DNA of 39,450 nucleotides from a virus, in the IMG/VR virus record IMGVR_UViG_3300021197_001667, positions 1 to 39,450 of that record; one strand, 5' to 3'. Below are positions 10,374 through 21,475 of the stretch, one piece after another (the stretch's first letter is position 1; every line of letters begins with the position of its first letter). The notes beneath the pieces were generated by a model. The model saw nothing but the letters and a program-made list of their open reading frames with translations. It was not told the origin of the DNA and ran no database searches. The translations under genes were made by a program, and so were the position numbers.

Positions 10374-13300
10374 ATGGTTGAAGAAATTAAGAAGTATTAT
10401 CAAGAAGAAAGAGTAAATCAAATCGACCTAGATTTCCTTGAGTTCGAAGAAGAAAAAGCAACAGAAGAAGATCTAGAAATTGTTTTACATGCTATTCAGA
10501 ACAACTTTAGTTTACCAAATACCCATAACTCTTGCATGCTTTATGTAACAGGTTTGACAGATCAGTTTGATTTTGTCGAAGCCAGGTGTGATACAATCGG
10601 CGGCTCTCCTCCAGACCTAGATATTGACTGGGAGGCAAAAAAGCGCGATCTAATTGTTGAAGACATTGCCGAGCTATGGGGTAGAGATAAAGTCGCTAAC
10701 ATTATGGCTTTTGGCTCTTTGAAGCCAAAAAGCCTTACAAGGCGTTATTTTAAGATTACTGAACCTGCTCCGCCAGAGTTCTTTAACGACAATACAAGAA
10801 TTGCTTATCTTTCAAAGAAGAAGAAGCATTATGAACTTATGGATGAAGTATTGGCTTGTGTGCCGCCGCCTAAGGCTGGTAAGGAAGCTACACTTCACGA
10901 GATTATCTACGGCAACGAAAAGAAGGGTTACCCTGCTAATACTAAGCTTGTAGATAACAGTAAGTTTGCCGGTTGGCATTTGTTTGCCAACCACCTAGAG
11001 AACATGACCAGTCAGTTTGGTATTCATGCTGCTGGTGTAATTATTTCAGACAAGCCTATTTATGAAACAATTCCTATGTGGAAGAATGGCAAGTCAGAAC
11101 GTATTACTCAATTCGACATGCATGAGTGCGAGGAGTTAGGGTCCATTAAGTTTGACTTTTTGGTCATTAACAACCTAGACATTATTTCTGAAACCATTCG
11201 TTTGGTTAAGGAAAGAAAGGGTATTGAGTTTGGAAACATTTGGGATACTCCAGATGGTGACAAAAATGCATACTCTTTGTTTGCGCGCGGACTTCTTTGT
11301 GGCATCTTTCAGTTTGAAACAAGTGATGTTATCAAAGAGGCAGCTGTGCGTATGTTTCCTAGTCTAGTAGAGCAGCTGTCGGACCTGACAGCTCTTATTA
11401 GACCAGGACCATACAATGCAGGATTCTTGGACAGATATCTAAACGAAGACCCAGACTTTGGTATTCCTGAAAAGGTAAGAAAGCTTTGGGGCACTACACG
11501 AGGAGTTCTTGTCTATCAGGAACAGCTAATGGAAATGTTTGCTGTATTCTGTGGATGGGATCTACAAAAGTGTGATACTGTTCGCCGCGCTGTTGGTAAG
11601 AAAAAGGAAAAAGTGCTTAAGGCACTTTATCCTGAATTTGTAAATGACTTTACTAGTCATGGTGGCTTTAGTCAGATTCAAGCGGATTACATTTGGGAAG
11701 TAGTTCTCGGTTGTGCAGACTATCTCTTAACTAAGCTTGACTTTTCCTTTTAATCGTATTATCATTTTAACATAGCCTACAGTAAAGGATACTGTTAAAA
11801 TGCGATACGCCACCACAGCAGAACAAAACCAAGACATTGTTAGACTTTATCAGGCTGGTCACACCGGCTCTGAACTGGCAAAAATGTTTGGGTTTAAAAC
11901 TTCAAAATCAATTTACGACAGACTTAAAAAGGCTGGTATTAAGTTGCGCAGCAGCAAGGAAACAAAGCAGTTGCAAAAGACTTATAACCCTAGTTTTATG
12001 AATGTTGTAGATAGAGAATGGAAAGGATACTTTTTGGGTTTAATGTTAACCGATGGATGGGTTTCTAGCAGCAGTAATGCTGTAGCCTTAGATTTGGTTG
12101 ACGAAGACGCTATTCAGTATCTTTCTATTATGATTGGAAAGGACTACAAAACGTACAAGCATGAAGGTGGCGCAAATAGCCACCGCATTGTAATGTGCGA
12201 CAAAGTTCTTTTTGAATCTATGAATCATTTGGGTGTATGCGAGCATAAAACCTATAACTTTCAAAAGCCTAATCTTTCGCTAGAAGAAATGATTTATCTC
12301 AAGGACATTGTCCGAGGAATCATTGATGGCGATGGAACTTTTGCTTATGTCGGCGAAAACAGTATTTACTTGCGAATTACAAGCAAGACAGAAGATACTA
12401 TTCGTTGGTACGAGTGGGCCTTAAAGGTTTTAGGTTTAACAAACCTAAGAGTCAAAGAGTACACAGCACAAGATAATTCTTTGCAGTGGAAGCTTGAAAC
12501 AGGTTTGGCAGAAAACATTCAGATTCTAAAAGATTCGGTTTATCGTTCTGACTATGGTATGAAAAGAAAAAGAGCAAAGCTGTATAAGGAGCGTTGCTAG
12601 GTAACTAGCAAATGAAAACCCTATAAATTGCGGGAAACCCCTTAGAGACATAAATACCAAACCGACCGTGTAAGCGGTCGGCGGCTAGTCTAACTAACTA
12701 GGTATGGTAACAAGTTTATGTATTGGGCAATCCGCAGCCAAACCTCCTGGTAACAGGAGGGAGGTTCAGAGACTATAATTAGGGAATCCTCTTTAAAAGA
12801 GGATTATGGTATAGTCCAGACAGCAAGCCGAAAGGTGGCTAGGGAAACCTAGTGCTGTAGGTTAACAAGTCGCACAGTGTTGCTTACTCACTCATCACTT
12901 ATATCTGTGCTTATCTTAAGGCTAACTATACTGAAGAGTTTTTCTGTGCGCTTATGACTATCCGTTCTGATGTAATGGATGCACAAAGCTGGGCAGAAAA
13001 GGCACCTCAATATATTATGGAAGCTCGTGAACTAGGAGTCGTAATTGAAGCTCCGTCTGTAAATGGTAGTGACATTGGATTTACCATTAAGGGCGACACT
13101 GTATTCTTTGGACTCAATGCTATTCGTAACGTTGGTACCGGCGCCGCTAATAAGATTATTAAGGCCCGAGGAAACGTTAGATTTTCAAGTATTGAAAACT
13201 TTATTGAGAGAGTTGATACATCAAAGATCAACACCAAAGTCTTTGACGCTTTGGCAAAAGCTGGTGCCTTTGACCTTATGGGTTATAAGAGATCAGAGCT

Positions 13301-17844: not shown

Positions 17845-20800
17845 ATGGCATACATTACTAATGCAGAAGAGCTAGTCGATAAACTAAAGGAAAAGTTACC
17901 AGAGTATTTGCAAATGATGCTTGGTAACGATACAGGAAACGTAAGTAAGAAGTTCCATTGTTTTGCTCATGAGGATTCAAATCCTAGTATGACTTACAAC
18001 CCGCACAATGGACACACAAGTGTTATGTGCTGGAGTGGTTGTGGCTCTTTTGATATTTTCAGGGCATGCAACGTTTTAGAAGGTATGCCTGATAAGGGTC
18101 CAGAGTGGATTACTTCTACTCTGCCCCATCTAGCAGAAAAGTTAGGTCTAGAAATTCAGCTTGGAGAAGTATCTGAGCATGAAAGAAATAGAGCTAATCT
18201 GTTTAGACTCAATAGTGACATTTCAAACATTCTAAAAGCTACTACTCTTAACGATGAATACATCGAAAGTCGTGGCTGGAAGAGTGACCATGTTACTATT
18301 GGTTCTATTGATGCTTCTGAGTTGGAAGCCAAGCTTCAAGAGCTTGGCTATCCACTTAAGTTTATTAGAGAGTATGGAGTTATTGGTCATGGTGCATGGT
18401 CTTACTTTGGTGAAGACCGAGTCACCTTTGCCATTAACGACTACAGAGGACGCACTGTAGGCTTTGTAGCGCGTTACATTCCTTATGAGAAGGGTAGCGC
18501 AGTACCAAAGTATATCAACTCCTCAGAGAGCATTGTGTACCGCAAGAGAGAGATTCTACTTGGTTTAGACTCAGCTCTTAAGTACGCGAAGAAGGATGGT
18601 CTTTATCTTGTAGAAGGTCCTGGTGATGTTGCTTCTATGCACGCACAGGGGATTCATAATGTCGCCGCTGTATGTGGCGTCTCTTTTACAGGTGAGCATC
18701 TTGCTCTACTAAAGATGCTTGGGGTTACCAAGCTGTTCCTATGTCTTGACTGGGACGAAGCCGGACAGAAGGCATCGCTCAAGATCATGAAGGAAGAGCT
18801 AAGGTTCGCTCCTGGCGTTACATGCTTTGTTGTAAATCCTCCTGAGGAAGGATTTACTGGCGATCCTGGAGAGTACTTAGAAAATAGCGGACCTGAAAGT
18901 TTCCGTAATCTTAGTATGACACCAGGCTTTGAGTGGACTCTTAAGTTTGCTGGTGAAGACCAGCCAAGAGATCAAGTATGTGATGAGCTTGTGCCTTTGA
19001 TTGCTTCAGAACATTCTGCTGTTCGTCGTGAGATCTTAATCAAGACCTTGTCAGACTTTACCGGCATTATGTTCCAGAGTATTGCTCAGGATGTAGAGTC
19101 TCTTCGAGATGGTAAGGCTGCAATTCGTCGTGAACGAATTGAAGCTGCTGTTCAAAAGTTTTCACGAGCAGGTGTATCTGATCCAGATAACGCATTGGCT
19201 CTAGTTGGCGCTTTTGAAAAGGACCTTGAAAGAATCGAAAGTGAGTTCAAGAGAAACGTTATTGGCGTAAGCTACCAAATGGATCGGTACGAAGCAGCAT
19301 TGCAGCTTAAGGAATCTGTCAGTACAGATTCCAACATGGCTGAATTTGTATTCGGACACCACAGAGATTTTGGTAAGGCTATGAGCGGAGGCATGAATGC
19401 TACTCGTGGTGTATTGGGTTATATTGGTGGTCGCGCTAACTCTGGCAAGACCGCAACAGTAATCTCTTTAGCCACTGATGTTGCATTGCATGACAAGGAC
19501 GCAATTGTCGTAACCCACTTTACCGATGACTCTTATACTCAGGTTGAGCCTAGGTTTATCGGTAATGTTGCAGCAATGATTAAGCAGCCTGGTGATCCAG
19601 ATCTTGAAATTGGAATGGCAGCAAACCCTGTTGTTAACATTAAGAATGATGCTCAGTCAGAAGTTTATAATAGAGCTACAGAAGTTCTAAGAAATCTTTT
19701 GAAGAACGAACGTCTTATTGTTATTGACAGTGAGGATGGAGCAACGCTAACAGCACTAGAGCGAAATCTTCGCTATGTAAGGCAGCGTTACCCTGACAAG
19801 AAGTTGCTAGTTGTATGTGATAAGTGTATTGTCACCTTTCTAGGGGGACCTAGAATGAAAAAGCCTGTAAATTGCTGGAAACCCCTAAAGCCTCATAAGC
19901 TACAATACTCTTTAGCAAGGGTATGAATGCTGCGAAAGCAGAAACAATTATGAGGATTCTTCAAGTTCAAAAGACTTATGAAGTATCTAATGGGCAATCA
20001 GCAGCCAAGCCACTAATAGTGGAAGGTTCAGAGACTATAATCAGGTCGTCTAGAACAGACGAAGGTATAGTCCAGCTCTAGGGGAAACCTTAGAGAAGAA
20101 CGCAAGCCTTATTGTACTTGCGTTCTAAATATACAGTAGCGTCATCATAAAGATACTTAATTAGTGCTTTATGACGATGTTCGGATCGATAAGAAAGGCA
20201 AATTCTAAAAATGTTTTTAGTGGGTCGCGGATTAGCACGGTGCTCAAAAGGCATTTGCTGTCCAGCCCAAAAAATAAACTCCTCTGTTCCTAGGATTACA
20301 AGAGCATTTGTTTTTGTAAAACAACCGTCTCCATCAATATAACCTCGCAAGAAATGTCGGGTTAAATGATTAGGAACTTGTTGTTCAGTTGGAGGTTTGA
20401 TTTGAAATGTTTTGCGAGGACCGCAACCCAAATTGATAAGGTCTTTTACCATTTGAGGACTTGGGATTCTTAATTGGCAAACTGGATTTTTGTAGTTGTA
20501 ATGTCCAACATTGTATTCGCTTTCCAAAGTCTTATTAAAGACCTCAAGATGGGCAGAATCTTTTTCAGATAAACAAATTTGCAAACTTGGTTGCTTAGAA
20601 TCACTAACGTTACCATCTGCATACAAAAAGCCAAGCCAATAAGCCTTGGCTTCTGAATCAATGCAAGAAAAGAAATCATGATTGCAACTCAATCGAGCAG
20701 CATCAAGAGATTCTTGATAAGTCCTTTTTAAACCTTTCTTATTCATAATTCGAGTTATAACTGTATGCGAAACTCCAAAAAGTTTGCCGATCTTATTTGC

Positions 20801-21475
20801 GCTTTTTCCAGAGAGATACAAATCAGTAATTTTATTGATTTGATCTTCTGTAAATGCTACTTTCTTAGCCATGTATATGCTCCTAACTTAATGGTTAGAG
20901 CATACAGAGCAAAAGAATTATCGTCAAGCTTTTTGAGTTTATTACTGAATACACACAATTACCATGACTATCCTGAGCTAGATCAGACTAGCAGGATGAG
21001 AATGATTAGTACGCAACAAAAAACTTTGACTTCAAAGTACCACTGTCACATTATGGCTACCGCAGAGTATCGCAAGACGCCTCTTGGTGACGGCAAGAAG
21101 ATGAAGCTTCCAGTCAACGATGATCTTGCTGATGCTCGTGCTTTAATCTATCGACCAAACTATATTGTTCATGTCTACAATGACTTGCACGATCGTGGTT
21201 CAGATTCTGAAATCTTTTGGGTTGATAAGGCAGAGCCAAATAAGCGTCAGCCACGTCTTATGTTGATCTTTGCAAAGAACAAGATTACAAGCTTTAAGAG
21301 TCCAGAAGACAAGCTAATGTTTGACCTAAACAAAAATACAGTTACCCTATCTAGTACAGATATTGAATCTGCAAGAGGGGAAAGCATTAGCTTTGCAGCG
21401 CAAAAAGAAAGTGGTAACGTTATTGTCGATGGTGACAATATTGTATACCGTGGAACAGAGTGGTCAGAAGAATAA
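17845..21475 (+). CDS. DNA primase-helicase (exons 17845-19821 and 20948-21475)
   Basis: After splicing this encodes 834 residues combining primase and replicative helicase, like T7 gp4. The zinc-binding domain uses C39, H42, C62 and C66. The Toprim domain has E257 in LVEGPGD and D302/D304 in LDWDEAG. A long helical linker leads to a RecA-type helicase with Walker A GRANSGKT (to T536) and Walker B LLVVCD ending at D659. The intron splits codons D659 and N660 (VCD/NTHNYHD). The gene starts after AAGGAAGG, 8 bases behind the purine enzyme. The product makes RNA primers and unwinds the fork for the split DnaE polymerase. The domain calls are firm; the exon junction is supported by the P1 pairing of the intron. 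Confidence 0.92.
20090..20872 (-). CDS. LAGLIDADG homing endonuclease, antisense in the primase-helicase intron
   Basis: The 260-residue protein starts with a helix-turn-helix-like region (ITDLYLSGKSANKIGKLFGV) and has two LAGLIDADG motifs, WLGFLYADGNV near residue 80 and LRGYIDGDGCF near residue 173, both with acidic residues kept. It is therefore likely active and expected to cut intronless primase-helicase genes near the Walker B codons. Orientation is opposite to the host gene and intron, so it cannot be translated from the operon mRNA and needs its own promoter; one is visible at 20899-20927. The Shine-Dalgarno AGGAG lies in a hairpin. The domain layout resembles the intron-1 enzyme, but the two are clearly diverged. 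Confidence 0.92.
   Translation of the reverse strand: MAKKVAFTEDQINKITDLYLSGKSANKIGKLFGVSHTVITRIMNKKGLKRTYQESLDAARLSCNHDFFSCIDSEAKAYWLGFLYADGNVSDSKQPSLQICLSEKDSAHLEVFNKTLESEYNVGHYNYKNPVCQLRIPSPQMVKDLINLGCGPRKTFQIKPPTEQQVPNHLTRHFLRGYIDGDGCFTKTNALVILGTEEFIFWAGQQMPFEHRANPRPTKNIFRICLSYRSEHRHKALIKYLYDDATVYLERKYNKACVLL
20873..20905 (-). promoter_or_regulatory. Hairpin sequestering the Shine-Dalgarno sequence of the antisense endonuclease
   Basis: On the - strand, GTATGCTCTAAC (20905-20894) can pair with GTTAGGAGCATATAC (20887-20873), allowing small bulges. The AGGAG (20884-20880), 8 bases before the ATG, is buried in the stem. Transcripts starting at the local promoter would begin near 20892 and lack the 5' arm, leaving the site free. 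Confidence 0.5.
20899..20927 (-). promoter_or_regulatory. Putative promoter of the antisense endonuclease
   Basis: TTGACG (20927-20922), a 17-base spacer and TATGCT (20904-20899) read on the - strand, 27 bases before the ATG of the endonuclease. The -10 lies in the 5' arm of the hairpin described above. The layout matches that of the sense endonuclease in the dnaE intron. Confidence 0.5.

Follow-up and report, generated by a model that had tools for sequence, protein, structure and literature searches.

A phage group I intron in a primase-helicase gene with a predicted LAGLIDADG homing endonuclease gene on the opposite strand

How an intron-borne endonuclease gene can be expressed without harm to splicing is an old question. 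Phage T4 answers it with separate sense-strand promoters: the endonucleases of its td, nrdB, and nrdD introns (I-TevI/II/III) have dedicated middle or late promoters, which uncouple their expression from that of the host gene (PMC2988022). Reverse orientation is another answer, published so far, in the literature searched, only for eukaryotic rDNA. In the phage locus described here, part of a 39,450-base stretch of viral DNA analyzed as a whole (the window), the ribozyme lies on the plus strand and an intact LAGLIDADG open reading frame (ORF) on the minus strand of the same intron. We give a probability of roughly 85% to the reading that this element is a mobile phage group I intron, probably propagated by its minus-strand LAGLIDADG endonuclease.

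The interrupted gene encodes a DnaG/DnaB-type primase-helicase, and the group I intron (19822 to 20947, plus strand) sits directly 3' of the Walker B Asp codon. The 5' exon (17845 to 19821, plus strand) matches Pfam Toprim and DNAG_N as well as the PHROG primase and DnaB-like helicase profiles and is collinear with uninterrupted relatives. Joined to the 3' exon (20948 to 21475, plus strand), which such relatives also support, it gives an open spliced frame of 834 amino acids with 0 internal stops and the junction LLVVCD|NTHNYHDY. No close relatives of the endonuclease or of the whole helicase were found by single-sequence search of viral_contigs; an alignment query recovered 26 loci. The protein runs ungapped across the junction in 24 relatives' loci (e.g., MLVVCDGTHNYSDF; 39 to 50% identical at the protein level), a set biased toward uninterrupted loci, since one search pattern of two (VCD[NG]THN) spans the junction. 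Screening of helicase relatives for introns revealed a 286-nt, ORF-free intron in two other phages (G013 and G014) at the identical phase-0 site, ILVGLD|NLFNLRDYEKLDRSR, with P1 formed by GGAT/GTCC and an 8-bp P10 by AAAAGATT/AATCTTTT. Both intron-plus and intron-minus alleles of the helicase site exist, then, occupied in G013/G014, there by an endonuclease-free intron, and empty in the 24 loci, albeit at high divergence. The sense frame of exon 1 continues for about 35 codons into the intron (19822 to 19926) until a stop, and automatic annotation would therefore yield a chimeric 693-aa protein and a downstream 236-aa ORF starting inside the intron at 20765 (intronic part, 20765 to 20947).

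Rfam group I matches occur exactly twice in the window, both on the plus strand. The one in the helicase gene (RF00028, 19826 to 20094) scores 68 bits with an E value of 2.5e-15 (gathering score, 50) and contains a P-Q-R-S core with P3 to P9. P1 is formed by exon 1 GTGAT (19817 to 19821) and GTCAC (19831 to 19835), with U.G at the splice site, and P10 by GTGTATT (19824 to 19830) and AATACAC (20948 to 20954), the seven bases that open exon 2. This P10 is a perfect 7-bp pairing and places the 3' splice junction at 20947/20948 independently of any reading frame. The internal guide sequence (19824 to 19835, plus strand) is thus made of the P10 and P1 strands, and the G014 intron, inserted at the identical position, has a guide built alike. 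At the 3' end (20945 to 20947, plus strand), CU at 20945 to 20946 can pair with AG at 20074 to 20075 to form P9.0, followed by the terminal omega-G, G20947. A P9 hairpin is predicted by folding at 20076 to 20095 (plus strand). The P7.1/P7.2 helices of phage IA-type introns are absent between P3' and P7', where P8 alone is present; because of this absence, and because the compact form is common to about 20 viral contigs, the intron is not assigned to a subgroup. The same P7-P8 core also recurs in compact introns of 29 bacterial contigs (L194 to L222), mostly from candidate-phyla bacteria.

The endonuclease gene (20090 to 20872, minus strand; 260 aa) lies antisense to the ribozyme in the segment that separates P9 from the 3' splice site. 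Its TAA stop codon (20090 to 20092) falls within the 3' strand of P9 (20088 to 20095). The initial annotation had proposed this layout and the intron boundaries. The layout is borne out by the Pfam and PHROG matches of the gene, and the boundaries prove exact, with P1, P10, the spliced frame, and the 24 uninterrupted loci in agreement. The protein combines a helix-turn-helix at its N terminus with two LAGLIDADG motifs, both intact (AYWLGFLYADG and FLRGYIDGDG), and matches PF14528 (4.6e-8) and PHROG 4645 (1.9e-55). Its AlphaFold model (pLDDT, 81) finds I-Tsp061I, I-AniI, I-SceI, and I-DmoI in Foldseek searches. Judged by its motifs, with their catalytic acidic residues, and its modeled alpha-beta fold, the product is a LAGLIDADG homing endonuclease of PHROG 4645, presumably able to cut DNA.

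Candidate expression signals precede the gene on the minus strand: a good Shine-Dalgarno sequence, AGGAG (20880 to 20884), 7 nt before the ATG, and a candidate sigma-70 promoter, TTGACG-N17-TATGCT (20899 to 20927), which is wholly intronic. Taken alone this promoter is weak, no better than chance against shuffles (P = 0.135). The shuffle P values for five related intron endonuclease leaders are 0.135, 0.018, 0.184, 0.202, and 0.011, and their combination (Fisher, by hand) gives about 0.002. The motif GCTTGAC-N17/18-TATNNT occurs in the window only at the two endonuclease genes (0.06 expected); we rejected it as a dedicated endonuclease promoter, since it was chosen after the sites had been seen and the antisense promoter alone reaches only the value given above.

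From these features we infer the following course. The intron of this tailed phage would splice out of the plus-strand primase-helicase mRNA. The endonuclease gene would stand as an independent unit in the stretch from P9 to the 3' splice site. It would probably be expressed in antisense from its own promoter and ribosome-binding site and for this reason be independent of the helicase transcript and insertable in either orientation. The enzyme would presumably cut intron-free helicase alleles at ...GTATGTGAT|AATACACAC..., a putative target given that the empty-site relatives are only 39 to 50% identical, and repair of the cut allele would copy the intron in, completing homing. The intron lineage itself probably belongs to the helicase site across related phages.

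An antisense gene inside an intron could instead be a passive stowaway, a free-standing endonuclease gene that landed there by chance, plays no part in homing of this intron, and persists because it is shielded there. The endonuclease-free intron of G014 fits this view, as does the fact that the 3' end of the gene overlaps P9 only, and a late invasion would account for any orientation. We nevertheless consider it unlikely, because the gene in the helicase intron is intact in both motifs and because phages of Flavobacterium psychrophilum suggest joint movement of an intron and its antisense endonuclease, a member of the same family. In Fpv1, Fpv2, Fpv20, FpV21, and FPSV-*, a group I intron interrupts a JAB/MPN-like gene (gp56+gp54) and carries an antisense LAGLIDADG gene of the PHROG-4645 type 3' of its core. 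Fpv1 matches RF00028 at 43.4 bits, short of the gathering score (50), but with an E value of 1.9e-9 for the 1.3-kb stretch. Comparison of Fpv1 (L229, NC_031914.1) with the intron-free FpV4 (L235, KT876724.1) delimits an insert of 1,021 nt with exact ends (L229:2404-3424, minus strand), at which P1 pairs GGTCAT/GTGACC and P10 pairs GTGTAT/ATACAT. Apart from 16 differences, clustered within ~41 nt at the start of exon 2 and synonymous in every codon but one, the flanks are 99.9% identical. Such a footprint in the 3' exon is of the kind left by homing, suggesting that the intron and its antisense endonuclease gene moved together. The insert is identical in 22 records, and 7 records are intron-free. 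This phage group I intron resembles the helicase intron in its antisense gene of the PHROG-4645 type after the core and in its ends set by P1 and P10. It differs in lying in another host gene and in having a longer P7 region, and its endonuclease lacks the N-terminal helix-turn-helix and is only about 25% identical to that of the helicase intron. Fpv1 and FpV4 are a cultured, nearly identical intron-plus/intron-minus pair, which allows a direct test of homing by an antisense-encoded endonuclease. The Fpv1-type record annotates the endonuclease only and not the intron.

How widespread is this arrangement? Endonuclease-like ORFs near core-motif sites are mostly on the sense strand by our own reading of ORFs, and for PHROG-4645 relatives in annotated phages, 13 of the 14 loci whose flanks are annotated are sense as well; the surveys were partial, with redundancy among their records, and the counts should not be read as frequencies. 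The view that antisense endonucleases are uncommon in phage introns thus holds for the loci examined. Antisense HNH_3 genes lie within the introns of apparent capsid genes in two other phages (L132 and L141, host genes assigned by eye), 34% identical to each other, with a copy in L145. From the sequences, the antisense layout appears to be a minority form in phages with at least three apparent origins. Other candidates were rejected. The antisense ORFs of L031 and L052 (LAGLIDADG) and of L138 (GIY-YIG) fall outside the host gene, beyond its end or ahead of its start, and the large antisense ORFs in L009/L080 and L073 either face a long sense ORF or resemble separate genes. It is tempting to generalize that phage group I introns repeatedly gain promoter-bearing reverse endonuclease units between P9 and the 3' splice site, which would form a stable, homing-competent class with expression separated from splicing and possibly antisense control of splicing, but we hold this generalization to be doubtful.

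The same arrangement is known from Didymium nuclear rDNA, where the introns Dir.S956-2 (I-DirII) and Dsq.L2066 (I-DsqI) encode their endonucleases antisense to the ribozyme; that of Dsq.L2066 lies in the P9 region (P9.2), and an internal promoter has been proposed for I-DirII (PMC9548176, PMC3679873, PMC3073962). These are group I introns with antisense endonuclease genes like the helicase intron, in Dsq.L2066 also at P9, but they reside in eukaryotic rRNA genes, belong to IC1/IE, and encode His-Cys box enzymes from genes with spliceosomal introns, whereas the helicase intron interrupts a phage protein gene and encodes a LAGLIDADG enzyme. The T4 td, nrdB, and nrdD introns are phage group I introns too, but carry GIY-YIG or HNH genes on the sense strand. 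PHROG 4645 members are found in group I introns or split genes of Staphylococcus phage Romulus (recA) and Alicyclobacillus phage KKP_3916 and in the polymerase introns of G012 and G001; all of these, unlike the gene in the helicase intron, are sense, and those of G012 and G001 further differ in lying before P2, near the 5' splice site. A survey of Bastillevirinae introns does not contain the word "antisense" (PMC11878797). In the open-licence full texts searched, we found no report of antisense endonucleases in phage introns, only the rDNA cases and the free-standing T4 segD, although an earlier report may exist. The antisense layout is uncommon in phages but not unique, and of a kind known from rDNA, differing here in the phage gene and the LAGLIDADG enzyme.

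The second group I intron of the window interrupts the DNA polymerase III alpha gene (11728 to 12861, plus strand; RF00028 match, 65 bits, core at 12531 to 12841), and its splicing restores ADYLFNKSHSVAYS / CADYLFNKSHSVAYS. Its endonuclease gene (11800 to 12600) is sense and located upstream of P2, after the 5' splice site, in accord with the initial annotation, which had placed it in the P1 loop. That annotation had further proposed that one intron lineage spread within this genome. On this reading the two introns would be sisters: in this phage lineage the polymerase intron would have been copied into the helicase gene, and each copy would then have captured an endonuclease gene of its own. 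Both introns are compact, and their cores are indeed similar (score, 153.6), as had been noted, but what they share is general: viral contigs contain the core motif GCAGCCAA..AGGTTCARAGACTA in at least 120 stretches, and the compact form recurs in the ~20 viral and 29 bacterial contigs mentioned above. Each of them scores higher with the same-gene intron of another phage, the helicase intron with that of G014 (182.6) and the polymerase intron with the second polymerase intron of G012 (234.4). In the intron tree, which is built on 186 alignment columns and has modest support, the polymerase intron groups with G012 (94/96) and the helicase intron with G014 (79/73). Forcing the two window introns together costs 13.35 log units and is not formally rejected (AU test, P = 0.124). 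Because of these scores and this tree, the introns seem to group by gene and not by genome. We regard a sister relationship as improbable, and the proposed spread within the genome is not upheld. The endonuclease phylogeny suggested with that annotation instead supports its other claim, the independent acquisition of the two endonuclease genes: the polymerase-intron endonuclease is sister to that of the second G012 intron (100/99), and a tree with the two window endonucleases as sisters is rejected (AU test, P = 0.0005). The difference between the helicase intron and its endonuclease-free counterpart reflects either a gain of the endonuclease gene in this phage or its loss from the relative.

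The window polymerase intron and its closest relative in G012 (L187:4367-5493) are inserted 19 nt apart within one conserved polymerase motif, ADYxFNKSHSV. They have sister endonucleases and are closely related introns at neighboring sites. In G012, one polymerase gene contains two group I introns (L187:3100-5500), each with a sense PHROG-4645 endonuclease gene before P2.

We detected no strong terminator where the antisense gene ends, and the antisense transcript could therefore read into the ribozyme core. A 10- to 11-bp hairpin predicted over the last endonuclease codons (20097 to 20126; fold z, -4.7 to -5.4 on either strand) may be a peripheral helix of the intron RNA and/or a weak terminator for this transcript. 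That the transcript also acts as a regulator, annealing to the intron and reducing helicase splicing until it is shut off, would fit the lack of a clear terminator and the overlap of the last codons with P9, but is very improbable, as the stable hairpin may end or protect the transcript.

Within the same endonuclease family, a relative of PHROG 4645 in a 484-kb uncultured phage is directly preceded by a sub-threshold match to HEARO RNA (L234:2232-2453; 68.9 bits; gathering score, 83).
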